In this document: one piece after another, positions 1 to 28,234 of the stretch
How the letters are laid out: each line of letters starts with the position of its first letter
Position numbering within the stretch: the stretch's first letter is position 1
NCBI GenBank assembly: GCA_020442185.1
Contig: JAGRKS010000057.1
Span: 1 to 41,578, forward strand
DNA: 41,578 nt
Direction: 5' to 3'
DNA from: Hyphomicrobiaceae bacterium
Lineage (GTDB): Bacteria > Pseudomonadota > Alphaproteobacteria > Rhizobiales > Hyphomicrobiaceae
Notes under the pieces: generated by a model
Database searches by the model: none
Told to the model about the DNA's origin: nothing
Seen by the model: the letters and a program-made list of their open reading frames with translations, nothing else
Translations under genes and position numbers: made by a program

Positions 1-3000
1 CGCTGACGTCAACGCTCACCACATCGGCGTCGTCGTTCGTCAAGTTGCCGAGCGGCGTCGACACCGGCGCGTCGTTCACAGGTGAAACCGAAATATCGAC
101 GTTTGCCGTGTCGGTCTGGCTGTTACCGTCGGACAGCGTATAGGTCAGCGTCGGCACGGGGCCGTTATAGTTTGCCGCTGGCGCGAACGTGAGATCGCCA
201 TTGGACTGCAAGGTGATCACGCCGATGGCCTGGCCGGTTCCCGTCACCATCGCCGTAGGTGCGCCAAGCGTCAGGACGTCGGGCGAACCGTCGCCGTTCC
301 AATCGATGGTTGCCGAGACGATCGTCAGCGGATCGCTGTCGGGATCGCTGTCGATGCCGTTCGCGGTAATGATGTTGGTAACAAGTGGCGTATCCTCGTT
401 GGTCGATAGCACGTCGTCGACCGCGACCGGCGGTTCATTGGCGTCGCGGTAGTCGAGATCATTCACGAGCGGCACAGCACCAGCGCCGTTCGCGGCGGTG
501 TCATTGTCGGTGTCGGCGAGGTTGAAGGTTGTGCCGCTGAGGTTCTCGTCGTTGACGTCGAAGCCGTCGGTGACGCTGGCGCCCTCGAAGATATCGAGGA
601 GGCCGTCGCCGTCGGTGTCGGTGGTCGAGGTGATGGAGGTGGGCGCGCCGTCGCCGCGCTCGGCGATGTCGGCGGTGCCGTCGTTGTCGCTGTCGACATC
701 GAGATAATCGACCGCGTCGGCGCCGTCGGTGTCGATCGGCGTCAGGCCGTTGGAGCCCATCGGTCCGGTCGTGGGAGTCGCGTCATACGCATCGTCGAGG
801 CCATCGCCGTCCGTGTCGACACCGGAAGGCGCGATGTAGCCATCGGTCGTCTGGGCTTCGACGTTGTCGGTGATGCCGTCGTTATCCGAATCGATGTCGA
901 GGTGGTTTGAAACACCATCAGAATCACTATCGACGGATTGGAGCGACTGGATCGTATAGGTGATTGGAAACGTCGTGAACGTGAACGTTGTCACTTGGTC
1001 GAGCGGCGCTATGACATCGGTTCCGAAAACAAGAAAACTGCTGACACCTGCATTGAACGTAAACGTGCCGAAGTAGTTATCCTCAACAGTGCTCGCAGGA
1101 TTTAGGAGCACCGGGCTGACTGCGCCAGCTGAAATCAGACCAGAAAAAGTGACCGTCTCGTTGGTTGCCGCGGTGGCGGCGGCCTCACCAGCCGCATCCA
1201 GAGAATAGGATACCAGGGCATCGAGACCATTTGCGTTCCCTAGGCCACCCCAACTGCCCGCCTGATCAATCGCTAGAGCGTCAACGAACTGGTTGGGATC
1301 AAAATTGTCAAGATCGATGAATTGAAGTCCCTGGATCAGGACAGCACCAGCCGGCGATGTCGCCGTAATTCGAATGGATTCCGCGGCCCCAGAGCTACTG
1401 TTCGTCGTGACCGAGTTGCCACTGATTGTTGCGCCAAAGTTGTTCGTTATGGTGACGGTAACGTTACCATCAGTCAGAATGATGACCGGCTGGCCATTCA
1501 CCTGGGAAGCGGCGGTAGAAGCGGCGGCATCGTAGGCGAGGGTCGAAGTTACTGGGGCGGACGTTACGAGCGACATCTCGTTTGAATCGATGATGCCGTC
1601 GTTGTCATCGTCGATGTCGACACTGTCGATTACGCCGTCGCCGTCGGTGTCGAGGGTGATCACAATGGTCGAGACGGCGGTGTTCGAAGATGACGTTCCG
1701 TCGTTGACCGTGACGTTGATGGTACGGTCGGCACCAGAGGTAGAGGACGACGAGAAGCCGACGAACTCGATCGCGGTCTGGTAGTCGGCAAGAGTTGCGG
1801 AACCGGTGAGCGTGATGACACCGGTCGCCGGGTTGTAGGCGGAGGCCGTGATGCCGCCCGGCAGGGCTGCCAGAACACTGAGGAGATCGCCGGACTGGGC
1901 GTTGGTCAGCGTGATGGTCGCCGACTGGATGTTGGTGTCGTTGGCATCGGTGATACCGACGTTGACGCCGGCAATGCCGACGGGCGCGGTGTTGGTGGTG
2001 TAGGTCGTCGCGTAGCTGGTCGGCTCGGGTCCAGGGTGGCTCGACGTGATCTGGATATTGTCGAAGTAGCCGAAGTCGGACGCTTCGAGCGCGGTGGACG
2101 CAGTGATGCGTACCGTCGTGTTGGCGGAGATGAAGGCCGAGATGTCGTGCGAGAAGCTCGTGTAGGCCGTGGACGAGTTGCCGTCATATGTTGCGAGCGT
2201 CGTGAAGTTGACGCCATCGGAAGATATCTGGATGGAGACCGTCTCCGCGGTGCCGTCGAGCCCGCCATTGCGGAAGTCATAGGTGAGCGTCGCGCTGGTC
2301 TCGCCCGACAGGTCCATCGCGCGCTGGATGGTGTCGACGCCGTTGTCTGCGTCGGTTATTCGCACCGAGAGATCGCCACCATCGGATACCAAGCGAATAT
2401 CACCGGCCGATGTGCTGGTAGTCTCGCCGGTTTCGACCCAGCTTCCGGTCCAGCCGCTACCACCGGAGTAGGTGTTGGTCTCGAACGTATCGGTGATCGT
2501 CGGGCCGGCTACGACAGGACCCGCATCGGTCGTGTCGAGATCGATCTCAGGAGGCAGATCATAGGTGACGGCAATGTCGCTCAAGGCGACGGCGCCGGTC
2601 GTCACGCCCGCCGTACCGCTGACGTAGAGAACCGTCACGCGACCAACGTTGGCTCCTGTTGTCGAGGTGATCGTGAGTTGGACGGTATCACCGGGATCGC
2701 TATCGCTCGGACCGTCGATGTTGCCGTCGAACTGCTGGGAGTTGGCATTGGCGGTGATCGTATAGGTCTGATTCACGGTCGACAACGGAACCGCGGTGAT
2801 GTCGGCCCCGGACAAGAGGACACCGTTGATATCGTAGGCCTGAACTATGATGCGGTCGTCCCAGCCGCCCGAAGACGCATCGATGTTGCCGACGTTGAAA
2901 CTGACCGAATTGGCGCCGTTGGGAAGCGCGGCACTGTTGAGCACGATGTCGACAAGCTGGCCAACTGTCGTGCTCGTTGTATTGCCTTGGATCACCTGAA

Positions 3001-3958
3001 CGGTGTCGCCGGTGCCGCCATCGCCGAAACCGACGCTGTTGCCGAAAACGACCCCCGTGCCGCTGACCGTGATGCTCATCGCGTTGGTGATGCCACCGAG
3101 CGGGTAGTTGACCGTGTTGCCCTGAATGAGATTGCTCGACGTCGCCCAGTCGTGTGTTGCCGACGACGGAGTGAGCAGGCCGTTCCACTCGACCACCGCG
3201 ATCGCTTCGGCCGATATGCCACCGATCGTCGTCTCGAGTTCCCAGTCGCCGCCGAGAGCTGCTGCACCTGTAAGATCGCTCGAGGCAGCGATGTCGGCAC
3301 CGGTGATGCCGCCGAGGATCATTGCGGCTTCCAGGCCCGCATCCCCTGCCGTGTAGTCGCAACCATAGATCAGGATATCACCGTCGGCCGACAGTGCTTC
3401 CCCGATTATGGTCAGTTCGTCGAGATGTTCACCCTGCATGCTCGCTGCAGTCAGGGTTGTATTTCCCAGGTTGAGGCTGCCCTCGGTGCCATGGCTGATG
3501 ATGTGAATTGCGTCGATATTGGAGCGTCCCGCGAGGGCCTCGGCAATCTGCTCCACGCCATCGCGTTCGCCATCGAGGATGATGATCTCCGCCCCGGAAT
3601 CGATCTGCTCCAGAAACACGTCAATATCGGCAACCGAGCTATCGATGACGATGATGACCGAACCGCTCGTCGTCTCCGCCTCGACCGCCGTCACCGCGTC
3701 GGCCAACGCCTCCAGGGGGTCCTGCCCGAAACCCGTCTGCTGCGCATGCCCGACATCCCCGCCAAGGCCGAAAAACGACGCGCCTCCTGGGCCATCCGTG
3801 ACCTGTTCGGCGGTCTGGGCGGCGGCGGCATCGAATGCAATCCGCTGTTCCAAGGCGCGATAGGACAGCGATTCCTTCAGCAATGCCCTGAGCCTGGAAA
3901 CATGCTGTTCAGCATTAATTGCCACGCGCGACGAAAGGTCATTCTTCAGCTTTTTCAT
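1..3958 (-). CDS. Giant DUF4347 / cadherin-like / TSP3-repeat surface protein, 5' part (3' end outside window)
   Basis: This reading frame is open from an ATG at 3958 to the window edge, giving at least 1319 residues. I translated several stretches across it and found no stop. Residues about 36-47 carry LEQRIAFDAAAA, which resembles the LEPR-XLL-type N-terminal motif of very large secreted proteins. Residues about 95-265 match DUF4347, with IHIISHGTEGSLNLG, ILIYGCDYTAGDAG and SSDLTGAAALGGDWELE. Beta-rich modules follow, then Asp-rich thrombospondin-type-3-like repeats such as DTDGDGVIDSVDIDDDNDG and DIDSDNDGITD that should bind calcium. A cadherin/VCBS-like domain (NEDTPLVTNI, DGNSQTD, VNDAPV) lies at the distal end. 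No classical Sec signal is visible, so export probably uses the upstream secretion genes. It is inferred to be a cell-surface adhesin or matrix protein. The next upstream gene on the same strand ends 299 nt away. Confidence 0.85.
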   Translation of the reverse strand, partial: MKKLKNDLSSRVAINAEQHVSRLRALLKESLSYRALEQRIAFDAAAAQTAEQVTDGPGGASFFGLGGDVGHAQQTGFGQDPLEALADAVTAVEAETTSGSVIIVIDSSVADIDVFLEQIDSGAEIIILDGERDGVEQIAEALAGRSNIDAIHIISHGTEGSLNLGNTTLTAASMQGEHLDELTIIGEALSADGDILIYGCDYTAGDAGLEAAMILGGITGADIAASSDLTGAAALGGDWELETTIGGISAEAIAVVEWNGLLTPSSATHDWATSSNLIQGNTVNYPLGGITNAMSITVSGTGVVFGNSVGFGDGGTGDTVQVIQGNTTSTTVGQLVDIVLNSAALPNGANSVSFNVGNIDASSGGWDDRIIVQAYDINGVLLSGADITAVPLSTVNQTYTITANANSQQFDGNIDGPSDSDPGDTVQLTITSTTGANVGRVTVLYVSGTAGVTTGAVALSDIAVTYDLPPEIDLDTTDAGPVVAGPTITDTFETNTYSGGSGWTGSWVETGETTSTSAGDIRLVSDGGDLSVRITDADNGVDTIQRAMDLSGETSATLTYDFRNGGLDGTAETVSIQISSDGVNFTTLATYDGNSSTAYTSFSHDISAFISANTTVRITASTALEASDFGYFDNIQITSSHPGPEPTSYATTYTTNTAPVGIAGVNVGITDANDTNIQSATITLTNAQSGDLLSVLAALPGGITASAYNPATGVITLTGSATLADYQTAIEFVGFSSSSTSGADRTINVTVNDGTSSSNTAVSTIVITLDTDGDGVIDSVDIDDDNDGIIDSNEMSLVTSAPVTSTLAYDAAASTAASQVNGQPVIILTDGNVTVTITNNFGATISGNSVTTNSSSGAAESIRITATSPAGAVLIQGLQFIDLDNFDPNQFVDALAIDQAGSWGGLGNANGLDALVSYSLDAAGEAAATAATNETVTFSGLISAGAVSPVLLNPASTVEDNYFGTFTFNAGVSSFLVFGTDVIAPLDQVTTFTFTTFPITYTIQSLQSVDSDSDGVSNHLDIDSDNDGITDNVEAQTTDGYIAPSGVDTDGDGLDDAYDATPTTGPMGSNGLTPIDTDGADAVDYLDVDSDNDGTADIAERGDGAPTSITSTTDTDGDGLLDIFEGASVTDGFDVNDENLSGTTFNLADTDNDTAANGAGAVPLVNDLDYRDANEPPVAVDDVLSTNEDTPLVTNIITANGIDSDPDSDPLTIVSATIDWNGDGSPDVLTLGAPTAMVTGTGQAIGVITLQSNGDLTFAPAANYNGPVPTLTYTLSDGNSQTDTANVDISVSPVNDAPVSTPLGNLTNDDADVVSVDVS

Positions 3959-4257
3959 GGTGAGCCATGCTTCCCAAAGGGCAAATAGGCGCAATTCTGC
4001 CATTGCACCAGTTCCGCACAGCATCAGTCCTATACGATTACCGAATTACTAAATTTCGCCCCGTTTTCTACAATCGCAGCGATATTTTCTGTTTCCGGCA
4101 TTTCATACAAATCAAAACAGCTCAAGCAATTTGTCGAAAATTATAAACGTCCGCCAGACAATGAAACACCGGGGAACAGCCATGAAAATTCGCCAATTTC
4201 GGCCAATCCGCTCATCGGTGCCCACCCGCGAAAAAGCCCGAGCCAGACGCCTGCGGA
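3959..4257. promoter_or_regulatory. AT-richer gap before the giant surface-protein gene
   Basis: This 299-nt gap separates the M50/HlyD gene from the giant surface-protein gene. It is clearly poorer in GC than its surroundings, especially at about 4020-4150, as expected for a promoter or leader. No clean rho-independent terminator or sigma-70 box could be assigned. The giant gene may therefore have its own promoter here while still receiving read-through from the secretion genes. Confidence 0.4.
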
Positions 4258-6390
4258 CTAAAAGCCGCTTTCCCGGATAAGCACGCTGACGGCTCGCCGC
4301 CAGAGCCGGTCGGCGAAGCTCTGAGGGACGCCGCCGACGACCGCAAGTCCCCGGATCCGCAGTTCGGGCGGTGCCGCAGGCCCTTCCACCGTCAGCACCA
4401 CAGAATATTGTGCGCTGACCGGAACCGCTTTCCTCTCGAAATCCTCGCTCGTTGCAATGGGCCCGCCGTGGAGAGATGAAAGATCGTCGATCTCGAGCCT
4501 TGCAACACCACCCTCGGCAATATCCGAAACGAATAGTGGCAAACTCGTCCGCGCGCCGTCGTCGGGAATGAAACGCCCCCTGGCTCCGACCGCAATGCGC
4601 CACACGTCCTTTTCTGCCACATATCCGCGCGCCTGCAGCCGTTCAAATTGGACGATTGTGGCGATACTTTCCGTTCTGCCGACAACCCGGCCAGAATGCA
4701 GGTTTTCCGCGACCTCGACGACTTTTCCGGATATCGGCGCCTTGATGATCAGATCCTCGCGAACTTTCTCGAGTCCCCGCTGTTGTGTCCGCAACGTCGT
4801 CAACTCGCGGCGCAGCACATCGCTCTGCTCGCGATCGCTGGCATCGGCCGCAACACGCGCCAGTCTGACTTCCGTGGCACGCACCCGCGTCGCCAAAAGC
4901 CGCAATTCATGCTCGAGTTGATCGGATTTGAGAACAGCGAGCACGGCGCCTTCGGCCACGCGCGTTCCGGGCTCAACGCGGACTTCCAATATTTCGGCCG
5001 CTCGCGGTGGAAACACTTTTTGCAGCACGCTCGGCTCGATGACGACCGGCACTTCCACATCGCGCGACCATGGAACGAGCGCGGCTGCGAGAATTGCTGT
5101 CAGCCCCGTCGCGGTCACCCACGCCCGCCGCCTGCCCCGTATCGCCGGCCATCGCTTCTTCCATTCCATGATTTCCCTCCAGATGGGAACCGCCAGCAAC
5201 AGAACCAACTCCGCTACAAAAAGGAAAATGCCGAGCGCCTTGAAGAAGAACATGTAGACCAGCACGGCAATCGCGAGGAACAGCAGCAGCCTGTAGATCC
5301 ACGTGCACCAGGCATAAGCAATCAGCCAGCCCCGCACATGGCGCGGGAAGGCTTCGGGCGGCGGCTCGCCAAGACCGAACAACACCTCCCGCAAATGCCA
5401 GCGCGCCAACGCAAACGACCGCGGTTGCAGGTTCGCCACCCCGGTCAGATCGGCGAGAAGAAAATAGCCGTCGAAACGCATGAACGGGTTGAGATTGATT
5501 GCAAGGCTCATCAACCACCCTGTCGTGGCGACGATGAAAGCAACGCCCTTTACATTCCCTTCCGGCAGGAAGGTCCACGCGAAGGTTGCGACGGAGGCGA
5601 GCATCAGTTCGACCGCGACGCCGGCCGCGTCGATCGCCAGACGGTCCCGCCGTCGCCCGAGCCGCCACGCATCGGTGACGTCGGTGTAGAGCATCGGCGT
5701 CAGCATCATGAACGCCACGCCCATGGTCGGCACATGGCAACCGAGCCTGACCGCGGTGTAAGCATGGCCCAGCTCATGAAGCGACTTGACGGCGATCAGG
5801 GCCACTGCAAACGCCAGCGCGCCGTCGAGATCGAGAAACGAATGGAACGTGGCGAGAAACGCGTCCCATTGCCGCGACGCGAGGTAGAGACCCAAAATCC
5901 CAATCGTAACGATTGTCGCCGCAGCGGACCGCGAAAAGAGAAACTCTACGTAGGGCCGCGTCGCAACCAGGAAGTTCTGCGGCCTGAAAACCGGAATCTT
6001 GAAGAACAGATAGTTGTGCAGCAAACGCTGGCGCCACATCAGACGCTGACGGGCCGCCTCGCCGGAGAGCCGCCGCCAGTCACCAGCTTCGGCGCTATCG
6101 AGCAGGTTCGACTTGGCGGCGAACTCTATAAAGGCAGCGACGTCGTCCTTGCCGATGTTGCGATCGAAGGTTTCGGCCACGGCGGCCAGCAGCCTGGAAA
6201 CAGTCGCTCCAGGACGCCAGAGTGTGAGGATCTCGAATGTCGGTTGATCGATCTCGATATAGCGATGACAAACCGGGTCGTAGATCAGCCATCGCTCGGA
6301 CGTCTCGGGTTCACCGGTCGGTCGCAGGATCTTGAGATCCTGCCGCAGCATCGGCAGCGTCTCGTCCGGCACGGGCTTCGCCGCAGCCAT
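4258..6390 (-). CDS. PqqD-like / M50 site-2-protease-like / HlyD fusion membrane protein
   Basis: This protein of about 710 residues has three parts. Residues about 15-100 resemble a PqqD-like peptide-binding fold (RWLIYDPVCHRYIEIDQPT). Residues about 135-435 form a multi-helix membrane domain of the M50 type, with zinc motif HELGH at about 205-209 and NPFMRFDGYFLLADL supplying the distal Asp at about 307. Residues about 445-710 form a HlyD-like lipoyl/beta-barrel adaptor (VFPPRAAEILEVRVEPGTRV). Related proteins are annotated as putative peptide zinc metalloproteases or HlyD-family transporters. I place the start at ATG 6390, which shares one base with the TGA of the upstream gene (TGATG) and follows AGGG at good spacing. 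An ATG at 6405 would add five residues. The likely role is to recognise, clip or pass on the exported giant protein at the inner membrane. That role is inferred. Confidence 0.85.
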   Translation of the reverse strand: MAAAKPVPDETLPMLRQDLKILRPTGEPETSERWLIYDPVCHRYIEIDQPTFEILTLWRPGATVSRLLAAVAETFDRNIGKDDVAAFIEFAAKSNLLDSAEAGDWRRLSGEAARQRLMWRQRLLHNYLFFKIPVFRPQNFLVATRPYVEFLFSRSAAATIVTIGILGLYLASRQWDAFLATFHSFLDLDGALAFAVALIAVKSLHELGHAYTAVRLGCHVPTMGVAFMMLTPMLYTDVTDAWRLGRRRDRLAIDAAGVAVELMLASVATFAWTFLPEGNVKGVAFIVATTGWLMSLAINLNPFMRFDGYFLLADLTGVANLQPRSFALARWHLREVLFGLGEPPPEAFPRHVRGWLIAYAWCTWIYRLLLFLAIAVLVYMFFFKALGIFLFVAELVLLLAVPIWREIMEWKKRWPAIRGRRRAWVTATGLTAILAAALVPWSRDVEVPVVIEPSVLQKVFPPRAAEILEVRVEPGTRVAEGAVLAVLKSDQLEHELRLLATRVRATEVRLARVAADASDREQSDVLRRELTTLRTQQRGLEKVREDLIIKAPISGKVVEVAENLHSGRVVGRTESIATIVQFERLQARGYVAEKDVWRIAVGARGRFIPDDGARTSLPLFVSDIAEGGVARLEIDDLSSLHGGPIATSEDFERKAVPVSAQYSVVLTVEGPAAPPELRIRGLAVVGGVPQSFADRLWRRAVSVLIRESGF

Positions 6391-8012
6391 CACATCCCTG
6401 TCCATTGCCGTAGCTTGGCGAATGGCCGCCTGAGTAGGTAGAACCCGAGCGTCACGCGCCCACCGTAGATTTGCGCCGTGCCTCGCGCACCGAGCCGCGC
6501 CGCCGTCTCCCCGTTCGCGAAGGCCGCTGTCACGCGGAACGACAATACCGAGGCGTCGCTCAACTTCGCCTGATAGTTGGCCCGCACGACATGCGCTGGT
6601 ATGGCCGCCAGCGGACTTGAATCGAGAAGCAGCTTCACCGGGGCGCCGTTATTGAGAATGATGGCATCCGCGACCGGAACTTCGATCCGTACTTCCATCG
6701 CCGCGGGATCGGCAATTTCGAGAATGCGCTCACCGACGGTGAGGGGACGGCCTAGCAGTTCCTTCTTATCAGCAAGCACAACCAGCCCGTCACGCGGTGC
6801 CCTGAGCTCGGTCTTGGCCAGCATGTCGGCCGCGAAATTCCGCTCCGCCGTTTTCAGCGCCAGTTCGGCTCGCGCCACGCCCAGCTCGTGACGGCCCCGG
6901 TCGTCCGCGAAGGCGAGTTGCGTCGTCGTGCGCAATCGCGCCTCTGCAACGAGGACCTCCCGTTCGGCGACCTCGAGCCGGTTGCGCAACATCGTGTCGT
7001 CGAACCGCACCAGCAGCGCACCCTTCTCGACACGCTTGTTCGGCTCCACAGGAATATCGTCGATCACACCGTCGATCGGAGCAGCAACCACGAAGGGATC
7101 GCGAGCAACAACTTCGGCGGGCGCAAGCGTGGTCAAGGATACCGGCAGGAAGCCCAGCGCAGCAAAAGCCGTGACCATCGCCAGAACCGCGCGCCGCGTC
7201 GGTCGCAGGCGTCGCAACACATTGGCTTCACTACGCAACGCCGACCATGCGTGCGCGAAGGCACCGCCAAGCCGTTGGGCAACGACGAGGTCGCGCTCCT
7301 GCCATACGACTTCGCGCAACATGAGCATGCCGCCGACAATGGCGCCGCGCCGGTCCGCGAACGGCACCCATAGCGCGTGCTGGAACGGATAGCCTGAAAC
7401 GATTGTGTCGCCGGCGGTTGCGTATGCTGCAAGCTCGAACTCGCAGGGACGTGCGGTCTGCCCTTCGGCGACCAGTCGTGCCGCCGCATTCTCGAAGAAC
7501 CGGACAAGGGGCGATGTCCGGTCGATGGACGCCATGGTCGAAACCGCAACCGCGCGCAATGTTCCGCGTGCTTCCTCGACGACGACAATCTGTCTGGCGC
7601 GTACGATACGTCGCGCTTCGTTGGCGATCAGAATGGCAAGTGTCGAAAGACTATCGGCCCCCCGTGCGTCATCTTCGATCTTCAAGAGCCCGAGAAGACC
7701 AGCATCACGTTCCGCAGAACCGCCGATGTCACCAACGGTCCGCGCGTCCTCGTCCGCCGTCTCTGCGCTTCGAGCAACTGCAGCCCCCTCGGGAGGCAAC
7801 GTCTGTGCCGCGGCCCGAACTTTCCGCTCCACGGCGTCCGCGCGCACCGCTTCAGGCGCCTCACCAGCGCTCGCCGCGGCCGCTTCAATCCGCAGCCTCT
7901 CCAGCTTTGCCATCGCCGTTGTCGCGGCGGTCGGGCCGGTCGTGTTCGCTTTACCGCCACGCGGATCGATCGTTATCGCTGTCCGCGAGGCTTTGGTCGG
8001 TGGCTGCGCCAT
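6390..8012 (-). CDS. GAF-domain / HlyD-family adaptor fusion
   Basis: This protein of about 540 residues joins an Ala-rich N-terminal region (about 1-110), a GAF-like sensor domain (about 115-255, with HALWVPFADRRGAIVGGML), one transmembrane helix (about 277-296, VLAMVTAFAALGFLPVSL) and a periplasmic HlyD-type adaptor. The adaptor has the lipoyl half-motifs VAAPIDGVIDDIPVEPNKRV and LRAPRDGLVVLADKKELLG around a short coiled coil. The topology puts GAF in the cytoplasm and the adaptor in the periplasm. ATG 8012 is preferred because GAGGG lies seven bases upstream; a GTG at 8015 adds one residue. The stop overlaps the next gene as TGATG, so translation is probably coupled. The GAF ligand cannot be told from the sequence. 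Confidence 0.83.
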   Translation of the reverse strand: MAQPPTKASRTAITIDPRGGKANTTGPTAATTAMAKLERLRIEAAAASAGEAPEAVRADAVERKVRAAAQTLPPEGAAVARSAETADEDARTVGDIGGSAERDAGLLGLLKIEDDARGADSLSTLAILIANEARRIVRARQIVVVEEARGTLRAVAVSTMASIDRTSPLVRFFENAAARLVAEGQTARPCEFELAAYATAGDTIVSGYPFQHALWVPFADRRGAIVGGMLMLREVVWQERDLVVAQRLGGAFAHAWSALRSEANVLRRLRPTRRAVLAMVTAFAALGFLPVSLTTLAPAEVVARDPFVVAAPIDGVIDDIPVEPNKRVEKGALLVRFDDTMLRNRLEVAEREVLVAEARLRTTTQLAFADDRGRHELGVARAELALKTAERNFAADMLAKTELRAPRDGLVVLADKKELLGRPLTVGERILEIADPAAMEVRIEVPVADAIILNNGAPVKLLLDSSPLAAIPAHVVRANYQAKLSDASVLSFRVTAAFANGETAARLGARGTAQIYGGRVTLGFYLLRRPFAKLRQWTGM

Positions 8013-8015
8013 CAC

Positions 8016-8864
8016 CTAGCCCTCGTTGGCTGCGAAGTGTGCGGCGCCACTCATTCCCGATAGGATGCCGTCGGTTGCGACATCCTTGCCGAACGCACCG
8101 AACACCTTGACGGTTTGGCTGATGGGATCGACCGCGGCGCCGATACGTGTCACATGCGCGTCGAAGCTGCGGCGCAATTCGTCGACGACGAACGTGAAAC
8201 GATCCCCTGTCCGCAGCCAGCGCAACCAGTCCGACGGCACGATCAGCTCGATTTCCGGTGCGCTATCGTCCAGGATCTCGATGATGGGCCGTCCGGAAAC
8301 CGGGATTTCATGGACATGGATATCCAGAGAAGCGAGACGCCCTGAAAACGGCGCCAGAATGCGGCAGTCGTTGGCGCGTGCCTTGAGCGCGGCAACTTCA
8401 CCGGCCGCCTTGTCGACACGAGCGCGCGAAATCTCGACCTCGTGCTTTCCGATGGCGCGATGCTGGTTCAGCACGAGATTGTTGTCGAGCGACAGCTCCA
8501 TTTCGCGCCGCTGCGCGTCCGATGCCGCGATCTCCGCCTCGTAGCGGCGACAATCGAATGCCACGAGCAGATCTCCGGCGGCGAAGCGGTCTCCCTCCTT
8601 CAGCGGCAACTCGGAGACCCGTGCGAGAAGATCCGTGGCAATCGTCGCCTTGTGCACAGGACGGATAACGCCCCGCGCGGGAAGATCCAGCCGGTCGCTC
8701 TCTGACGCCAACGCCGCCACGGGCGCAACGACACATGCGAGACCAGCGCAGAAGAATACCCGACCAAGAACGAAACGCAGCCCCGCGCGCCACGTGATCC
8801 GTCGCGGCCGGCCCGGCGCATCGCTCTCAATAACGGACGTAGGTCGCTGTCTTGGCCGCACCAC
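8016..8864 (-). CDS. HlyD/RND-type periplasmic adaptor subunit
   Basis: This is a membrane-fusion protein of about 282 residues. An N-terminal hydrophobic segment (LRFVLGRVFFCAGLACVVAPVAAL, quoted in part: FFCAGLACVVAPVAAL) acts as signal or anchor. A lipoyl domain with a short alpha hairpin and a beta-barrel follows (DLPARGVIRPVHKATIATDL, CRILAPFSGRLASLDIHVHE). The product should bridge the inner-membrane parts to the TolC-like protein encoded just upstream. A GTG at 8864 is chosen because AGGAG lies five bases upstream. A TTG at 8879 would add five residues. The gene overlaps the 3' end of the TolC-like gene by 38 nt and ends next to the GAF-HlyD gene, which supports a tight operon. Confidence 0.85.
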   Translation of the reverse strand: MVRPRQRPTSVIESDAPGRPRRITWRAGLRFVLGRVFFCAGLACVVAPVAALASESDRLDLPARGVIRPVHKATIATDLLARVSELPLKEGDRFAAGDLLVAFDCRRYEAEIAASDAQRREMELSLDNNLVLNQHRAIGKHEVEISRARVDKAAGEVAALKARANDCRILAPFSGRLASLDIHVHEIPVSGRPIIEILDDSAPEIELIVPSDWLRWLRTGDRFTFVVDELRRSFDAHVTRIGAAVDPISQTVKVFGAFGKDVATDGILSGMSGAAHFAANEG

Positions 8865-10368
8865 GTTCGCTCCTGCCAATGAGGGCCCTGGCGCGCATGT
8901 CGCCAGCCAGCTCGGAAACCGACAGCTGATGACTCAGCTCGTCGGCGTATGGATCGAGACCCATGGAAGCGAATACGTTGGCGTATGCCGTCTGCACGGC
9001 GGCGAAGGCGATGTCGTGCTTGACCTCGGCAACGAGCGTATTCATTTCTTCGCGGATCAGTGTCTGCTCGCTGATCCGGTCTGCGGATGCTTCGATGCGC
9101 ATCTGCGCCACCAGGCGGCTCTGCACGTCAAGATACTCGGCAGCTGTTGCCAACTCCTTGCGCAAGTGCAGGTACTTCACGCGGCTTACATGCACCTGGG
9201 TCATCACGGCCATGGTCAAGGCCAGCTCGCGTTCGCGCAGGACATCGTCCTGCAGCTCGACCACGCTGCGCTTGGCGGGATACTGGAAAACCTTGAGCAG
9301 GTTCCAAGCAGCCTTGTACCCCCAACCATGCCAGGTATCGTTGAGCAGGAAGGTATTGCTGTCATAGTTGGCGCCAACATAGAGCTGGAACCCGGGAAGC
9401 AGCTCGAGCAGCGCCGCATCCGCTTCGTGACTGTTGATGCGGCGCTTATATGCCACCTCGCGAAGCTCCGGACGGAACTTCATGGCGACACCGATCATCT
9501 CCTCAAGCCCCATCGTCAGACCCGGAGTTCTAGAACTGCGAGGCGGCACCACAAGAGCGAAGTGCGCTTTCGGCTTCAGATTCATGAGCGCCGCGAGTTG
9601 CGATTTCGCGATCTTGAGATCGCGATCGAGTTCCTGGATCGTGCGCTTGATCTCGACGAGTTCGCGCTCATAGGTCAGCGCCGTAATCGGCGACGTCTCG
9701 CGCGCACGGTAAAGCCGCCGCGTACCATCGAGCGCCTGCTGCGTGCGACGTTCGAGCCGGCCGAGGCGTCGCATGAGGCGCTCGGCGCTCACAGCACGCC
9801 AGTACGCCGTCCTGACGTCCTCGACGATGCGCTGGATGACCTTGCGCTTCAGCTCATCAGCGATCAGCACCTTGTCGGCCGCCTGCCGTGCACGGATATA
9901 CGAGAGGCCGAAGTCCAGCACGTTCCAACTGAAACCGATATCCGCCGTCTCGATCCTCTTTTCCTGCGACGTCGCATTGCGGAGCACCACGGGACTGGGA
10001 CCGAGCACGTCACCCGGAAGGACGGTCCTGCTGCTGGTCGCCGAATAATTGTCGCGCCCTGCAAACCCAGTCGAGGCAACAGCGGAGGGCAACAAGCTCC
10101 AGTGCGAGAGATCGAGCTCGGCGACGCGCAACGACTGCTGCATCGCCTCGACACGGAAGTCGAGATTGTAGGCCAACGCACGCGACATCGCCTCCTGGAG
10201 ACCTATGGCGCGCGCAACAGGCTCCTGACCGGCAGTCACCTCCGCGACATTAAGGTCCGCGTTGATCGTCAGCTCGATCTCGGTAAATGGCTCCGGACGC
10301 ACGGCGCAACCCGCAAGGAACACGACGAGCCCAACCGAAATTGTCCTATAGAATGCCAGTCCCCGCAC
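8827..10368 (-). CDS. TolC-family outer-membrane efflux lipoprotein
   Basis: This protein of 513 residues has a lipoprotein signal (VGLVVFLAGC, lipid-bearing Cys21) and long amphipathic helices typical of the TolC/OEP family, with the repeated helix pairs about 60-270 and 290-490. It should form the outer-membrane exit duct that docks with the HlyD-type adaptors encoded downstream. The start is a GTG at 10368; no in-frame ATG lies before the mature domain, and a G-rich stretch sits upstream as a possible ribosome site. It is the first gene of the four-gene secretion operon, and its 3' end overlaps the adaptor gene. No ABC or RND inner-membrane pump lies nearby. Confidence 0.88.
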   Translation of the reverse strand: MRGLAFYRTISVGLVVFLAGCAVRPEPFTEIELTINADLNVAEVTAGQEPVARAIGLQEAMSRALAYNLDFRVEAMQQSLRVAELDLSHWSLLPSAVASTGFAGRDNYSATSSRTVLPGDVLGPSPVVLRNATSQEKRIETADIGFSWNVLDFGLSYIRARQAADKVLIADELKRKVIQRIVEDVRTAYWRAVSAERLMRRLGRLERRTQQALDGTRRLYRARETSPITALTYERELVEIKRTIQELDRDLKIAKSQLAALMNLKPKAHFALVVPPRSSRTPGLTMGLEEMIGVAMKFRPELREVAYKRRINSHEADAALLELLPGFQLYVGANYDSNTFLLNDTWHGWGYKAAWNLLKVFQYPAKRSVVELQDDVLRERELALTMAVMTQVHVSRVKYLHLRKELATAAEYLDVQSRLVAQMRIEASADRISEQTLIREEMNTLVAEVKHDIAFAAVQTAYANVFASMGLDPYADELSHQLSVSELAGDMRARALIGRSERGAAKTATYVRY

Positions 10369-15090: not shown

Positions 15091-17683
<2,593 letters not shown>

Positions 17684-17710
17684 GTCTTTCGTCTCCGCTG
17701 TGATTTCAGA

Positions 17711-18919
17711 TCAAGTCGTTGCAACGGTCTGCTTCAGGGCCGCAACACCGGGCATCTCCCGGCCTTCCAGCCATTCGAGGAATGCGCCGCCGGCCGTCGA
17801 AACGTATGTAAAGCGCTCGGTCACACCGGCGCCGTTGAGCGCGGCAACGGTGTCGCCGCCGCCCGCGACCGCGACCAGCCGGCCCGCGGTCACGAGATCA
17901 GCTGCCGCCCGTGCGACCTCGAATGTGCCGGTCCCGAACGGAGCCAGTTCGAACGCGCCGAGCGGGCCATTCCATAGCAGCGTCGCCGAGTTCGCGAGCG
18001 CTTCTGAAATGCGCGCGACCGACGCCGGGCCGACGTCGAGGATCATGCCGCTTTCGGGAACGGCATCGACCGGCAACAGCGCGTGCGGCGCGTTGGCAGC
18101 AAACGCTTCGGCGACGACGACGTCGACCGGCAGGATGATTTCGACGTTGGCATCGCGCGCCTTGGCGAGAATGCGCTCTGCGACCGCCACCATGTCATGC
18201 TCCACGAGCGACGTGCCGATGCCGTGCCCTTCTGCCAGCAGGAACGTGTTGGCCATGCCGCCGCCGATGATAAGGCGGTCCATACGCGACAGCAGGTTCT
18301 CGATCACGGCGATCTTCGACGAGATCTTGGCGCCGCCGACCAGCGCGGCGGTCGGGCGCTTGGGACATTCGAGCGCCGCTTCGAGCGCACAGAGTTCCGC
18401 GGCCATCGTCGGCCCTGCGAATGCCGGAAGCAGCGCCGCGAGCCCCGCGATCGAGGCATGTGCGCGATGAGCAGCCGAGAAGGCGTCGTTTACATAGATG
18501 TCGCCGAGTTTGGCGAGCTGGCGCACGAATTCCGGGTCGCCCTTCTCTTCGCCGGCATGAAACCTCAGGTTCTCGAGCATCGCCACCTCGCCGTCGGCCA
18601 GCGATCCAACGACGGCCTCGGCCTCGGCGCCGACGCAGTCTCCTGCGAACACAACCTGCCGCCCCAAATGGCGCTCGAGAACCTCGGCAACCGGACGGAG
18701 CGTCGCCTCCGCGAGGCGCTGACCCTTCGGACGGCCGAGGTGGGACAGAACCACGACCTTGGCACCCCGTGCCGCGAGTTCGGCAATTCCAGGTGCGACG
18801 CGCGCGATGCGGGTTTCATCGCTGACAACGCCGTCGCGGATCGGCGCATTGAGATCGACCCGCACGAGCACCGTGCGGCCTCTCACATCCGCCTCGGAGA
18901 TCATTCCAACGCCCTTCAT
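17711..18919 (-). CDS. pgk: Phosphoglycerate kinase
   Basis: This two-domain kinase of 402 residues phosphorylates 3-phosphoglycerate with ATP. Motifs include VLVRVDLNAPI, VVLSHLGRPKG, ENLRFHAGEEKGD, NDAFSAAHRAHAS, the nucleotide-site ALVGGAKISSK and VAGGGDTVAAL. It has normal length. The ATG at 18919 has AAAGG upstream; an internal ATG at 18904 is possible. It sits between cbbT and cbbA, so expression is tied to carbon fixation. A cbbG (GAPDH) gene, which often accompanies it, is absent. Confidence 0.97.
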   Translation of the reverse strand: MKGVGMISEADVRGRTVLVRVDLNAPIRDGVVSDETRIARVAPGIAELAARGAKVVVLSHLGRPKGQRLAEATLRPVAEVLERHLGRQVVFAGDCVGAEAEAVVGSLADGEVAMLENLRFHAGEEKGDPEFVRQLAKLGDIYVNDAFSAAHRAHASIAGLAALLPAFAGPTMAAELCALEAALECPKRPTAALVGGAKISSKIAVIENLLSRMDRLIIGGGMANTFLLAEGHGIGTSLVEHDMVAVAERILAKARDANVEIILPVDVVVAEAFAANAPHALLPVDAVPESGMILDVGPASVARISEALANSATLLWNGPLGAFELAPFGTGTFEVARAAADLVTAGRLVAVAGGGDTVAALNGAGVTERFTYVSTAGGAFLEWLEGREMPGVAALKQTVATT

Positions 18920-18957
18920 GGTTCCAAGCCTTTCGTTTCAACCCGTCAAGTTTCGCT

Positions 18958-20961
18958 TCAAGCCGTCAAACGGCGTGCGGCTTCTCTGACCGCTTGCGGG
19001 GTGATCCCGAAATGCTCGTAGAGTTTCGGAGCCGGCGCGGACGCGCCGAACCCGTTCATGCCGATGAAGACACCGTTGTCACCGATCCAGCGATCCCAGC
19101 CGAACCGCGACGCAGCCTCGACAGCGATACGCGGCGCGGTTCCGAGCACGGAAGCGCGGTAGGCGTCATTCTGCTGCTCGAACAGGCTCCAGCACGGCAT
19201 GGAGACGACAGCGGCCGCGACACCATCGGCCGCCAGCAGGTCGGCCGCCGCCACCGCGATCTCGACTTCCGATCCCGTTGCGAGGATCGTCACGGCACGC
19301 TCGCCCTTGGCCTCGCGCAGCACGTAGGCGCCGCGCGCCGATAGGTTGGCGCCGGTGTGCTCCGTTCGCAGCGTTGGCAGCGCCTGCCGCGACAACGCCA
19401 GCACGGACGGTGCGTTGTCGGTCTCGATCGCGGCTTGCCAGCACTCGGCCGTTTCGACGGCGTCGGCGGGGCGGAACACCAATGTATTCGGGGTCGCGCG
19501 CAACATAGCCAGATGCTCGACCGGCTGGTGCGTCGGGCCGTCTTCGCCGAGACCTATCGAATCGTGCGTCATGACGTAGATCACGCGCTGCCCCATCAGC
19601 GCCGACAGCCGCATCGCGCCGCGGGCGTAATCGGTGAACGCCATGAACGTGCCGCCGTAGGGGATGAACCCGCCGTGCAGAGCGATGCCATTCATCGCCG
19701 CGGCCATGCCATGCTCGCGCACGCCGTAGTGCAGGTAGCGGCCGGTGAAATCATCGGGCGTGATCGAGCCCAGCCCCTTCGTGATGGTGTAGTTCGAATG
19801 CGTCAGATCCGCCGAGCCGCCGAGTGTCAGCTCGCTTGCCGCGTTGATGATCCCGAGCACCATTTCCGACGACTTGCGGGTCGCGACCTTGGGGGCCGAC
19901 GAGACCAGTTCCTTGCGATAATCGGCCAAGGCCTCCGATATGTCCTCCGTCGCCCCGGCCATCTGCCGCTCGAAGGCGGGGCCGCGCTCGCAGACGCCAA
20001 CTCGCAACTGCCAGGCCGCCCGCGTTTCCGCGCCACGCTCTCCGACGCGCCGCCACGCCGCGCGAATGTCATCGGGGATCTCGAACGGCGCATGCTGCCA
20101 TCCGAGTGCGGTGCGCGCTCCCGCGATCTCGTCGGCGCCGAGCGGCTCGCCGTGTGCCTTGGCGGTTCCCGCACGTGTCGGCGCGCCGAAGCCGATGACC
20201 GTCCTGCAGGCGATCATCGATGGGCGGTCGGCGACGGCATTGGCTGTCGCGATGGCCCGCTCCACCGCGTCGGCGTCATGGCCATCGACCGATGAGACAT
20301 GCCAGCCGGCAGCGGCGAACCGCTTCATCTGGTCCATCGACGTCGCGAGGCTGGTCGCACCGTCGATCGAGATCTGGTTGTCGTCCCACAGCACCAGAAG
20401 TTTGCCGAGTTTGAGATGTCCCGCCAGATCGATCGCTTCGTGGCTAATGCCTTCCATGAGGCAACCGTCACCGGCGATCACATAGGTATTGTGGTTGACG
20501 AGTTCGGTGCCGAAGCGCGTCTCGAGAAGTCGCTCGGCGATGGCCATCCCGACGGCGGTGGCGATGCCCTGCCCGAGCGGACCCGTGGTCGTCTCGATGC
20601 CGAGCGCATGACCGTATTCGGGGTGACCCGCCGTACGGCTGCCGAGCTGGCGGAAGCTCTTGAGGTCGTCCGTCGTCATGTCCTCGTAGCCGAGCAGGTG
20701 GTGCAATGCGTATTGCAGCATCGAGCCGTGTCCAGCGGAGAGCACGAAGCGGTCCCGGTCGGGCCAGGAGGGTGAGGTCGGATCGATCGACATGAAGCGC
20801 GTGAACAACACCGTCGCGACGTCCGCCATGCCCATCGGCATGCCCGGATGTCCCGATTTCGCGCGCTCGACCGCATCCATGGACAGCGCGCGGATTGCGT
20901 TCGCCATATCCCTTTGCGACACCTCGGAGGCACGCGCTTCGATTTGATCGGCCACAGCCAT
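18958..20961 (-). CDS. cbbT: Transketolase
   Basis: This thiamine-diphosphate enzyme of 667 residues moves two-carbon units in the regenerative half of the Calvin cycle. Visible motifs are [38 protein letters not shown], the ThDP motif [13 protein letters not shown] to [10 protein letters not shown], and the pyrimidine-domain [35 protein letters not shown]. The ATG follows GGAGGAAG. It starts 18 nt after cbbP. Confidence 0.97.
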
Positions 20962-20979
20962 GATGGTTCTTCCTCCAGG

Positions 20980-21855
20980 TCAGACGGCGCGCTTCTTCAT
21001 CTCGATGAGCCGGTGGATCGTCGGCGTCAGGATGAGCTGCATCGCGAGGTCGAGCTTGTTGCCCGGGATGACGATCGAGTTGGCGCGCGACATGAAGCTG
21101 TCGTGGATCATCGAAACGAGGTACGAGAAATCGATGCCACGCGGGCTCTTGAAGCGGATCACCACCAGTGACTCGTCCGGCGTCGGAATCCAGCGGGCGA
21201 TGAACGGGTTCGACGTATCGACCGTCGGAACGCGCTGGAAGTTGATGTCCGTGTGCGTGAATTGCGGACAGATATAGTTCACATAGTCCGGCATGCGCCT
21301 GAGGATGGTGTCGGTCACCGCCTCGGTCGAGTAGCCGCGCGAGGCCTTGTCGCGATGGATCTTCTGTATCCATTCGAGATTGAGCACCGGCACGACGCCG
21401 ATTTTCAGATCCGCATGCCGCGCAATGTCGACCGCATCGGTGACGACTGCGCCGTGCAGGCCCTCGTAGAACAGCAGATCGGTGCCGGGCGGAAAGTCGC
21501 GCCATGGCGTGAAGCAACCCGGCTCGACGCCGAAGCGCGCCGCTTCCTCGTCGTTGTGAATATAGTTGCGGGTCTGGCCGCCGCCCGTTTCACCATAGGT
21601 TTGAAATACGGATTCCAATTCGGCGAACAGGTTCGCTTCGGGGCCGAAGTGGCTGAAGTGCCGATTGCCCGTGGACTCCGCCTGCTTCTGCGCCTCCTTC
21701 ATCGCCGCCCTGTCGAAGCGATGAAAGGCGTCGCCCTCGATTTCGGCGTGGACGATGCCTTCGCGCCGGAAAATCTGCTCGAACGTGTGGCGAACCGTCG
21801 ACGTACCGGCGCCCGACGAACCCGTCACCGAAATGATGGGATGCTTTATGGACAT
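20980..21855 (-). CDS. cbbP: Phosphoribulokinase
   Basis: This kinase of 291 residues makes ribulose 1,5-bisphosphate from ribulose 5-phosphate, the committed step before RuBisCO. The P-loop is SVTGSSGAGTST. EGDAFHRFD holds the catalytic Asp region, LLFYEGLHGAV is the Walker B-like stretch, and RGYSTEAVTDTILRRMPDY is typical of the bacterial octameric class. GGAGAG precedes the ATG. It lies 12 nt after cbbF. Confidence 0.97.
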   Translation of the reverse strand: MSIKHPIISVTGSSGAGTSTVRHTFEQIFRREGIVHAEIEGDAFHRFDRAAMKEAQKQAESTGNRHFSHFGPEANLFAELESVFQTYGETGGGQTRNYIHNDEEAARFGVEPGCFTPWRDFPPGTDLLFYEGLHGAVVTDAVDIARHADLKIGVVPVLNLEWIQKIHRDKASRGYSTEAVTDTILRRMPDYVNYICPQFTHTDINFQRVPTVDTSNPFIARWIPTPDESLVVIRFKSPRGIDFSYLVSMIHDSFMSRANSIVIPGNKLDLAMQLILTPTIHRLIEMKKRAV

Positions 21856-21867
21856 CTCGCGCTCTCC

Positions 21868-22920
21868 TCAGGGCCGGAACAGGCCGCGTTCGTTGAACAA
21901 GGGTGGGGACTGTTCCCGGATGGGCGCATCCACGTGATAGCGCGTGACGCGGTGGACCTTGTCGGCGGAGCCGAAGATGAGCGGCGTTCTCTGATGCAGC
22001 GCGGTCGGCAGAATATCGAGAATGCGGTTGACGCCGTCAGTCGCGCCGCCGCCCGCCTGTTCGAAAATCAGTGCGATCGGATTTGCCTCGTAGACCAGGC
22101 GCAACCGCCCGTTCTCGTAGCCCTTGCGGCCGTCGCGCGGATAGAGATAGATGCCGCCGCGCGCCATGATGCGATAAGCCTCCGCCACCATCGACGCGAC
22201 CCAGCGCATATTGAAGTCCTTGCCGCGCGGTCCTGTCGCGCCAGAGATCAGATCGTCGATGTAGTCGCGCACCGCCCGCGGCCAGTGCCGATAGTTCGAG
22301 GCATTGATCGCGTACTCGTTGCGGTTCTCGGGGATGCGCACGCTTTCGGCGGTCATCCGGAACGTTCCGTCCCGCGGATCGAGCGTGAAGATGTGCGTGC
22401 CGGCCTTGAGCGTCACAACGAGCGCCGTCTGTGGCCCGTAGATAAAAAATCCCGCGGCGAGTTGATCGCGCCCCGGCTGCATCAGCGCCGATTCGATGCG
22501 GCCGGTTCCGGTAGGCGGAACGGGAAAGATCGCAAAAATGGTACCTATCGAAACGTTCGTGTCGATGTTCGACGATCCGTCGAGAGGATCGACCGCGACG
22601 GCGAGAGGGGCTGCGGCATCGATGACGTCGACGCTTTCGCGCTCCTCGGAGCCGATCACTGCGACAGGCGCCGCCGCCATGGCCTCGCGGAACAGGCGAT
22701 CGGCCTCGACGTCGAGAAACTTCTGCTGATCGCCGCCGGACTCCTCGCCCGTGCCGACGACCTTGCCCATATCGCCCTGCAAAGGCCCGATGGCGATCGC
22801 TCGCGACAATGCGGCTCCGGCGGCCGCCAGTACGCTCACTGTCCGCGCGACGTCCGCCCGCCCACCCGCGCTCACAAATGTTTCGAGATGCTCCTCGAGT
22901 GTCTGCAGAGCCTTCTTCAC
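21868..22920 (-). CDS. cbbF: Class I fructose-1,6-bisphosphatase
   Basis: This enzyme of 350 residues hydrolyses fructose 1,6-bisphosphate (in many autotrophs also sedoheptulose 1,7-bisphosphate). The signature VDPLDGSSNIDTNVSIGTIF provides metal ligands, and IGSEERE and the substrate site RWVASMVAEAYRIM are clear. The start is GTG 22920, with GGAGGG six bases upstream. It is the first gene of the cbb operon and is transcribed away from cbbR. Confidence 0.96.
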   Translation of the reverse strand: MKKALQTLEEHLETFVSAGGRADVARTVSVLAAAGAALSRAIAIGPLQGDMGKVVGTGEESGGDQQKFLDVEADRLFREAMAAAPVAVIGSEERESVDVIDAAAPLAVAVDPLDGSSNIDTNVSIGTIFAIFPVPPTGTGRIESALMQPGRDQLAAGFFIYGPQTALVVTLKAGTHIFTLDPRDGTFRMTAESVRIPENRNEYAINASNYRHWPRAVRDYIDDLISGATGPRGKDFNMRWVASMVAEAYRIMARGGIYLYPRDGRKGYENGRLRLVYEANPIALIFEQAGGGATDGVNRILDILPTALHQRTPLIFGSADKVHRVTRYHVDAPIREQSPPLFNERGLFRP

Positions 22921-26212: not shown

Positions 26213-28234
26213 CTATTCGGCCGCCTCGCGTCCGAACTGCAGTTTTGCGAGCCGGCCATAGAGCCCTCCCGCGCCGCTCAGTTCCGCATGCGTCCCCTGC
26301 TCGACGATACGTCCCTGGTCCATGACGACGATGCGGTCGGCCTTCTGGACGGTTGCGAGACGGTGCGCGATGACCAGCGTCGTCCGCCCTTCCATGACGC
26401 GCTCCAAGGCACGCTGCACCAGCACCTCGCTTTCGGCATCGAGCGCACTCGTTGCCTCGTCGAGCAGAAGGATCGGCGCATTCTTGAGGATCGCGCGAGC
26501 GATCGCAACACGCTGGCGCTGACCGCCGGAAAGCGACACGCCGCGCTCGCCGAGGCGCGTATCGTAGCGCTGCGGCAAGGCCTTGATGAATTCGGCCGCG
26601 TGCGCGGCTTCGGCCGCCGCCTCGATCTGCTCCCGTGTCGCGTCCGGTGAGCCGTAGGCGATGTTGGCCGCAACGGTATCAGCGAACAAGGCGGTGTCTT
26701 GCGGTACGAGTGCCAACCGCTCGCGCAGATCCTCGAGGCGCGCGTCGCGTATATCGACGCCATCGATGCGCACAGCCCCGCTGTCAGGATCGAAGAACCG
26801 GAACAGAAGCGAGAAGACCGTGCTCTTGCCCGCGCCCGAAGGGCCGACCAGGGCGACGGTTTCGCCCCGAGCGACGGAAAGCGTCAAACCCTCGATCGCG
26901 GGTGTTGCGCTCCGCGACGGGTAGGCGAAGCTGACCGCCTCGAACGACAGCTCACCGCGCGGTGGCTTCGGCATCGGGACGGGATTTTCCGGCGAGCGGA
27001 TCTCCGGCACTTCGGCAAGCAACTCGTTCAGTCGTTCCGCCGCGCCGGCCGCCTGGCTCATCTCGCCCCAGACCTCCGACAATTCCGCCATGGCACCTGC
27101 CGCGAACACGGCATAGAGCACGAACTGGCCGAGACGGCCGCCCGACATCTCGCCGCCGATAACGGACGAGGCACCGAACCACAGCACGCCGGTGACGCTC
27201 GCGACCACGAGGAAAATGGCGAGAGCCGTCAATCCGGCACGCGCCATGAGACGCCGCCGGGCACTCGAGAAGGCATCCTCGACCGCCGCGCCGAAACGGC
27301 CAGACACGACATTTTCGTGGGCGAAAGCCTGCATCGTGCGCACGGCCACGAGATTTTCCGACGCGTAGGCCGACGCCTGCGCCAGGCTGTCCTGCGCTTC
27401 GCGCGACAGCCGTCGTACGACCTTGCCATAGGCGACGAGCGGCAACACGATCGCGGGGATCGCAAGCAGCACCATCGTCGACAGCTGGGGACTGGTGACG
27501 AACATCATGACCAGCGCGCCGATTAGCATGATCGCGTTGCGCAGGGCCTGCGACAGCGCGGTTCCGGCCGCGGCCTTGATCTGCGTCGTATCAGCCGTCA
27601 GGCGGCTCATCACCTCGCCCGAATGTGTTCGCTCGAAGAACGCCGGACCAAGGCGCGTCAGGTGCGCGAAAACGTCTGACCGCAGGTCGGCGACGACCCT
27701 CTCTCCCAGCCAGTTCACCGTATAGAACCGCGCCGAACTCGCGAGCGCCAGCAGTGCGCCGATCGCAATCAGCATGGCGAAGTACTGGTTGATCAGCTGG
27801 CCGTCGGCGCCGGCGAACCCGAAGTCGATCATACGGCGCACGGCGAGGGGGACGACGAGCATCACCGCGGCCGATACGATCAGCGCGAGTAGAGCCGCGG
27901 CAACCATCGATCGGTGGCGCAACAGGTATGGCTTCAGCGCCAACAGCGGACGGAGCGACCGGCGCGCGACCTGTTGTGCATCCCCGGATTCGCCCGGTTG
28001 CGCCCGATCCGTTTCCCGGTGAACGCCTGGGGTCGCGGTCGCTCGCCCTGCTGCCGCGTTCGCCGCACCGGGATTCACGGCGCGGACGCCCTCGACTGCG
28101 GTTGCTCTGATCTCGACGCTCAACGTATCATCCTCGGTATCGTCCTCGATATTTCGTCGCGGCATCAAGCCGGAACCGTCCGCGGCACCCGGCCGTCGGC
28201 GGGCAAAGATGCCCCACAAGACCGGGTGTCTCAA
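26213..28234 (-). CDS. ABC exporter, fused membrane and ATPase domains (MsbA/ABCB type)
   Basis: This half-transporter of up to 673 residues has a poorly conserved N-terminal extension of about 95 residues and six membrane helices (about 108-395). Its ATPase domain carries Walker [10 protein letters not shown], signature LSGGQRQR, Walker [13 protein letters not shown] and switch His in [10 protein letters not shown]. It should act as a homodimer exporting a lipid, peptide or drug; the substrate is unknown. The start is uncertain: ATG 28165 (MPRRNIEDD) is a shorter option. It diverges from rpmE. Confidence 0.9.

Follow-up and report, generated by a model that had tools for sequence, protein, structure and literature searches.

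An M50/HlyD/TolC gene cassette without a local ABC pump as candidate exporter of giant tagged proteins in a Hyphomicrobiaceae bacterium

Proteins of the LEPR and DUF4347 types reach up to thousands of residues, and their export route is undescribed in the open PubMed Central (PMC) literature among the matches listed. The question of how such a protein could leave the cell is raised by the 41,578-nucleotide stretch analyzed here (the window), which is the entire contig C106 (JAGRKS010000057.1) of a 4.0 Mb draft genome of a Hyphomicrobiaceae bacterium. On its minus strand, a run of five closely spaced genes (10368 to 2) encodes in this order a TolC/OEP-type outer-membrane channel, a short and a long HlyD-type adaptor, a PqqD-like/M50/HlyD inner-membrane fusion and a giant DUF4347 protein, none of the five being an ABC or RND pump. 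Our reading, to which we give a probability of roughly 60%, is that the cluster is a dedicated exporter of giant repeat proteins bearing an N-terminal LExR-xx-FD[AG]A tag, the M50 fusion standing in place of the ABC pump. If true, this would be protein export without an ABC, RND or MFS pump, with an intramembrane-protease homologue taking the pump's place. A first-pass annotation had recognized the four-gene set and its giant neighbor, and all five genes are borne out by profile matches, by a second cassette of the same order in this genome and by relatives in several groups.

A search with the M50 fusion gave 3877 related proteins among 7998 candidates scored, and at least 582 stretches in named genomes encode an M50 relative; the best 80 were kept and, together with the genome's own two cassettes, constitute 82 loci that were labelled by profiles built in this analysis. 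The cassette order recurs in relatives from Alpha-, Beta- and Gammaproteobacteria and Nitrospirota, M50 relatives being found also in a few other groups. In 68 of the 82 M50 loci at least two same-strand HlyD genes lie within 2.5 kb, and an OEP gene is present in 52, while DUF4347 is encoded in 41, another open reading frame (ORF) of at least 900 residues in 21, and neither in 20, many of which are short contigs. The large repeat proteins that partner the cassette have open frames from about 760 to more than 10,000 residues, and among DUF4347 proteins frames of about 9,600–10,500 residues were noted in genomes G003, G156 and G507. A tag-bearing giant is visible in 43/82 loci; 20 of the other 39 were traced into whole genomes, 17 of which encode DUF4347, and all these 17 have at least one tagged DUF4347 protein (the LEPRLLYDG of G003 was judged by eye). 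As for pumps, the absence of a local ABC gene that had been remarked for the window's cluster extends to its relatives, as an ABC ORF of at least 450 residues is found in none of the 81 other loci. The sole instance is the window's own ABC exporter (26213–28234), about 16 kb from the cluster, and it was rejected as the pump since it is an MsbA relative (TIGR02204, over cut-off) and not a type I secretion protein. An ABC ORF adjoining the M50 gene in locus L223 is ABC-F/Uup-like and no exporter.

The association was quantified in two samples, 241 Alphaproteobacteria genomes and 323 genomes from the class of genome G017, with thresholds of E≤1e-30 for M50 and E≤0.001 for DUF4347. The first sample holds 12 genomes with M50, 22 with DUF4347 (19 over the family cut-off) and 9 with both; the second 51, 45 (44 over cut-off) and 35, respectively. 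Upon removal of the own genome, 8 Alphaproteobacteria have both (11 M50, 21 DUF4347, n=240, p=1.2e-7), and upon removal of the centre genome of the second sample 34 have both (50 M50, 44 DUF4347, n=322, p=7e-25), the p values treating genomes as independent. Clearly, the M50 cassette and DUF4347 giants co-occur far above chance, as had been anticipated from the window. The two matches are on the same contig in 19 of the 35 class-of-G017 genomes with both (centre included), in 17 of them within 8 kb between match starts, and on the same contig in 7/9 Alphaproteobacteria genomes (read by eye).

The N-termini of the DUF4347 proteins were read in both samples, where proteins of one genome are not independent, leaving out from the first six genomes with only weak partial matches (G120, G148, G160, G175, G214 and G243) as well as locus L129 (no ORF call), and from the second G320 (no DUF4347 ORF), G433 (truncated) and a weak partial match in G444. 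In genomes with M50, a strict form of the tag is carried by 11/12 DUF4347 proteins of the first sample and 34/40 of the second (45/52 pooled), against 0/20 and 2/9 (2/29 pooled) in genomes without detected M50, which gives p=7e-13 for tag versus M50 presence in the pooled samples and upholds the suggested tie between the N-terminal motif and the system. The one untagged protein from M50 genomes of the first sample represents the latter half of a broken frame, and three of the six from those of the second are near-variants (LEPRILMSA, LEPRIMMSA, LEPRILLAA) that fall outside the strict pattern. Untagged DUF4347 proteins of M50 genomes (G544, G327, G008, G015, G016) mostly have the DUF4347 domain near the N-terminus, and the DUF4347 proteins L154, L165, L167 and L168, from genomes without detected M50, have signal-peptide-like N-termini and no tag.

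Beyond DUF4347, the loci read contain 1980 ORFs of 200 or more residues that lack this domain, and the strict tag occurs in three of them (L046, L223 and L268), each the large ORF beside M50, while it is absent from reversed sequences; a looser pattern adds two further ones, both in L065. This pool comes mostly from cassette loci, so that it shows that the tag marks giants and not its frequency elsewhere. The DUF4347 domain itself was considered as the export signal and rejected on two grounds: untagged DUF4347 proteins fill the genomes without M50 (20/20 in the first sample, 7/9 in the second), and tagged proteins without DUF4347 adjoin cassettes (L046, L065 twice, L223, L268). The data indicate the tag, and not DUF4347, as the feature that the proteins associated with the cassette share.

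The giant of the window (2–4024, minus strand) is interrupted by the contig end at 1341 residues, which is thus its minimal length. Its ORF opens at 4024, and an ATG at 3958 (MKKLKNDL) is the more natural and likely the true start. The proposed export tag, LEQRIAFDAAAA, spans 3818–3853 on the minus strand (residues 58–69 of the ORF) and is followed by the DUF4347 domain (3203–3655, minus strand), which passes the PF14252 cut-off with 163 against 24.6 bits, and by cadherin/Big-like repeats. A structure model of DUF4347 has a caspase-like clan CD fold with an invariant His/Cys dyad, formed in the window giant by His 178 and Cys 222 (ORF numbering). Lying right behind the tag, this domain may serve in self-cleavage of the giants. 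The same fold and His/Cys pair are found in Tce1 (PA0256), which the available parts of PMC13323088 and PMC8262886 present as a putative cysteine-protease effector of the type VI secretion system with DUF4347. The difference is that Tce1 is cargo of that system, whereas here DUF4347 is the most N-terminal domain of a giant protein that is predicted to sit at the surface.

The tag exists in two types, FD[AG]A and LLSAD, which track the M50 clade, the window's clade (clade A) having FD and its sister clade LLSAD. Methylobacterium brachythecii (L033), Neorhizobium sp. JUb45 (L020) and Halomonas cupida (L087) are examples of bacteria that carry a cassette of clade A. In the tag profiles the E, R and D or S/A columns are fixed by the search patterns; at pattern-free positions, 77 distinct windows of the FD type have A at +9 (97%), T at +13 (85%) and P at +2 (67%), and 27 windows of the LLSAD type have E at −2 (96%) and D at +9 (77%). 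When 53 M50 proteins (43 + 10 rows) were placed on a tree, one fully supported branch parted the two types, corresponding to a single change of tag type, and a split as clean was obtained in 0/500 shuffles. A frame-split, low-scoring M50 in G312, which was outside the tree, goes with a tag, LENRIVLDAA, that fits the two types poorly. Both versions are neighbors in locus L257, where one contig has, on opposite strands, a clade A cassette whose giant bears an FDAA tag and a sister cassette that includes a SecA-like gene. The likeness to LEPR-XLL proteins (NF012209, cut-off 17 bits) that had been noted for the window holds in part: both have the LExR core near the N-terminus and L056, L087, L210, L212 and L217 pass the cut-off, but the window giant has no match at E≤0.1, nor have L046 and L065 at E≤1, and in the window's clade FD[AG]A replaces LLSAD.

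The same genome encodes a second cassette, on contig C75 (L007), with giant, M50, HlyD, HlyD and OEP genes in an order identical to that of the window, the four machine proteins being 41–53% identical between the two. The tags of the two giants are LEQRIAFD in the window and LEPRIAFDAA in L007, and both giants run off their contigs. Window bases 1–79 are 97% identical to positions 447–525 of L007, which lie inside its giant gene, so that the assembly was probably interrupted by a repeat common to both.

The inner-membrane fusion (4258–6405, minus strand; 715 residues) is predicted to take the position that the ABC pump has in type I systems. Its Peptidase_M50 match, 26.4 bits, falls just under the Pfam cut-off of 27.2, but the features of the family are in place: the structure model has an S2P fold with HExxH and NP..xDG in membrane helices. 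The zinc-protease motif HELGH is at 5764–5778 (minus strand, residues 210–214) and the second metal-site motif, NLNPFMRFDG, at 5467–5496 (minus strand, residues 304–313). In alignment A1, H210, E211, L212 and H214 are invariant, as are N304, P307 and M309–G313; HExxH is kept in 84/84 clade A rows and in 30/30 lower-scoring rows, and PxxR[FY]DG in 81/84 clade A rows. The HlyD part (HlyD_3, 3.5e-11) folds like MacA, AcrA and EmrA, a likeness to the MacAB-TolC and EmrAB-TolC systems, from which the cassette differs in that its adaptor is fused to M50 and not partnered with an ABC or MFS pump. At the N-terminus, residues 25–98 (6112–6333, minus strand) form the PqqD-like region, the proposed tag reader. 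When the whole M50 model was submitted to structure comparison, the matches were HlyD-type domains, biotinyl domains and one M50 chain, with no PqqD chain listed, and the PqqD-like region had no match among the sequences of solved structures in the Protein Data Bank. A match to the PqqD family (PF05402) with E≤0.1 is lacking for the window protein and present for 3 of its 18 aligned relatives, the best with E 0.0021.

The remaining parts of the duct are all encoded on the minus strand. The outer-membrane protein (8827–10368; 513 residues, GTG start) matches PF02321 with 2e-33 and shares 53% identity with the corresponding protein of the L007 cassette. The short adaptor (8016–8879; 287 residues) matches HlyD_3 with 1.5e-14 and RND_mfp with 80 bits, under that family's cut-off; its ORF overlaps the OEP gene and its start codon is uncertain. 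The long adaptor (6390–8015; 541 residues) matches HlyD_3 with 1.5e-15 and has an additional N-terminal region of about 270 residues; no GAF match is found in this protein, while GAF is over cut-off in the counterpart of the sister cassette L210 (7527–9488).

From these components we infer the following route. The PqqD-like domain would bind the tag at the cytoplasmic face; the M50 membrane part would guide the chain, and perhaps clip its leader, on entry to the duct, which the two HlyD adaptors and the TolC-type channel are predicted to complete. The push would come from a dedicated SecA-type motor in the sister clade, and in the window's clade perhaps from the housekeeping SecA or from another source, such as the proton motive force or a distant ABC protein. 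After export, the caspase-like DUF4347 behind the tag may cut the giant, leading to its release or anchoring. Power is the weakest step of this mechanism, and in the sister clade it is SecA-type by gene content. A wider proposal, which we make tentatively and at somewhat less than even odds, is that of a separate class of Gram-negative export, in which the tag (LExR-xx-FDAA or LEPR-LLSAD) would serve as an address code that the PqqD-like domain of an M50 translocon recognizes, giant proteins would be fed through a HlyD/TolC duct, power would come from a SecA-type motor or from protons and not from an ABC or RND pump, and matched tag/receptor pairs would let two systems coexist in one cell.

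Regarding power, a SecA-like gene directly follows the sister-clade M50 gene in 19/31 sister loci, about one third of the loci having been fetched because the gene was known there, and it is present in 6 of the 14 sister loci fetched first. Scans of four of the SecA-like proteins gave only SecA_DEAD, SecA_PP_bind and P-loop domains, and GEGKT is unchanged across six of these proteins. Among 80 genomes searched, a dedicated SecA-like gene is found in 13 of the 20 with sister-clade M50 and in 0/26 without M50, and in G002 and G527, where both M50 clades are present, it adjoins the sister-clade one. No secondary SecA_DEAD occurs in 82 clade A loci except for a 28-bit match in L064. The description of the set as ATPase-less thus holds for the window's clade by gene content, whereas a SecA-like gene is frequent in the sister clade. 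A single SecA, of housekeeping type, is present in the own genome, and its frame is only 692 residues long and ends in an assembly gap; a hidden paralogue was rejected, given that this sole SecA starts like housekeeping SecA and stops at the gap. An unlabelled recurring motor near clade A cassettes was likewise looked for and not found among the neighbor families present in at least five loci, which are the giants themselves, a group averaging 561 residues (13 loci) and two small incidental families. The 561-residue group is found in 13/82 loci (L041, L073 and 11 further clade A loci), and the N-terminus of its longest member resembles a membrane sensor.

A number of observations weigh against the proposed export function. 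In the first place, export, tag binding and cleavage of the giants are all predictions from sequence. The assignment of the N-terminal region of the fusion to PqqD is weak, and weaker than the first-pass annotation had stated, although the modelled strand/helix pattern is compatible with it. M50 is present without DUF4347 in 3/12 Alphaproteobacteria and 16/51 class-of-G017 genomes. Three plainly untagged DUF4347 proteins occur in M50 genomes of the second sample (G327, and G544 twice), untagged ones stand beside tagged ones in four instances from M50 genomes outside the two samples, namely G008 (two), G015 and G016, and tagged proteins are found in G366 and G476, where no M50 was detected. The match between tag type and M50 clade could reflect shared descent: because it is a single event on the tree, it shows association only and not repeated matching. 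On the side of power, no dedicated SecA was found in any of 32 genomes whose known M50 is of clade A and not of the sister clade, nor in 7/20 sister-clade genomes, and no recurring motor gene is seen among neighbor ORFs of at least 100 residues in 82 loci. Finally, the own genome has two PrtD-type ABC proteins over cut-off, outside the window.

These last proteins bear on a first alternative, which we consider unlikely, namely that an ordinary type I ABC system, with its genes outside the cassette, carries out the export of the giant, the cassette only processing, holding or releasing it at the inner membrane. In type I secretion, including that of giant adhesins of the LapA/SiiE type, a TolC and HlyD duct exports a giant repeat substrate, and the window cluster resembles it in having an HlyD adaptor and a TolC channel; it differs in the lack of a local ABC gene, in the conserved N-terminal tag and in the absence of RTX repeats in the relatives checked. 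PrtD is over cut-off in 15 of 26 genomes with M50 and DUF4347, the own genome with its two copies among them, and in the other 11 LssB is found in 3 and HlyB in 0, these two having been searched only in the 11 PrtD-less genomes, plus LssB in the own genome, where none is over cut-off. Nevertheless, 8/26 genomes have none of the three type I ABC families over cut-off, and in five of these (G078, G003, G009, G012, G019) no protein clearly scores higher than the MsbA relative of the window; G078 is 100% complete, and the other four are uncultured assemblies whose completeness is not stated. An ABC exporter elsewhere had been named from the outset as the case that would speak against the cassette, and it recedes for these 8 genomes but is not closed for the own one. 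Further against this alternative, the cassette carries its own TolC and two adaptors, and no strict RTX nonapeptide is found in 15 giant ORFs of relatives that have both ends, the window giant itself being truncated.

Equally improbable in our view is that the giants cross the inner membrane via SecYEG and housekeeping SecA and that the tag serves in retention or sorting, as a signal for a duct in the periplasm that starts at M50/HlyD. The SecA-like gene of many sister cassettes, the housekeeping SecA of the own genome and the signal-peptide-like N-termini in M50-less genomes (L154, L165, L167, L168) would agree with such a route. The tagged leaders, however, are mostly less hydrophobic than those four: the median of their best 11-residue hydropathy is 1.45, with 2/45 over 1.9, while the four range from 1.9 to 2.8, the compared stretches differing in length. 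Also, the four scanned SecA-like proteins are limited to the DEAD, P-loop and preprotein-binding domains of SecA. Very improbable is peptide maturation, in which M50 would cut a small product from its leader, as in daptide and other pathways for ribosomally synthesized and post-translationally modified peptides, and the giant would be incidental: the best NCBIfam match of the M50 region is indeed daptide_HExxH (NF041824), but its 174 bits are far under the cut-off of 300 and what accompanies the cassette is a large repeat protein, the neighbor clustering having covered ORFs of at least 100 residues.

Dedicated export by the M50 cassette, our preferred reading, has a precedent in gene content. 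Kamneva, Poudel and Ward (2015; PMC4452313) describe, in the available part of their paper, a SecA_DEAD/M50/HlyD/GAF-HlyD module in which M50 was proposed as the pore and a secondary SecA as the ATPase, and report the SecA-containing operon from Methylobacterium extorquens AM1; no substrate is named there and the broader role is called completely unknown, and in the main text as available LEPR, DUF4347 and PqqD are all absent. As far as that part of PMC4452313 goes, the sister cassettes with a SecA-like gene are this very module. The window's cassette resembles it in the combination of an M50 membrane protein with HlyD adaptors in one locus, sometimes with OEP and with no ABC; it differs in that OEP is in the cluster in the window's clade and in that no SecA-like gene was found in the genome besides the housekeeping-type SecA. 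As to GAF-HlyD, the window has the long HlyD, with no GAF match, and GAF is seen in L210. A link of M50/HlyD cassettes with DUF4347 or LEPR proteins was not found in the open PMC literature among the matches listed, subscription papers and preprints lying outside this search; the available part of PMC8277102 likewise mentions neither LEPR, DUF4347 nor Kamneva. What is new, as far as searched, is the substrate with its tag, the pairing of two tag types with M50, and the SecA-less clade, the module type itself being already known without a substrate. These findings link the tag with one particular membrane machine and offer the substrate missing from the 2015 SecA/M50/HlyD module. If the reading is true, the power source becomes directly testable, since many sister cassettes bring their own SecA and the window's clade has none.

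Outside the cluster, the scanned parts of the window contain ordinary genes. Among them, those of the Calvin cycle encode the RuBisCO large subunit, phosphoglycerate kinase, transketolase and fructose-bisphosphatase (15091–22920, minus strand), and an EAL-domain protein of 823 residues, which scores under the TipF and LapD cut-offs, is encoded at 33412–35883.

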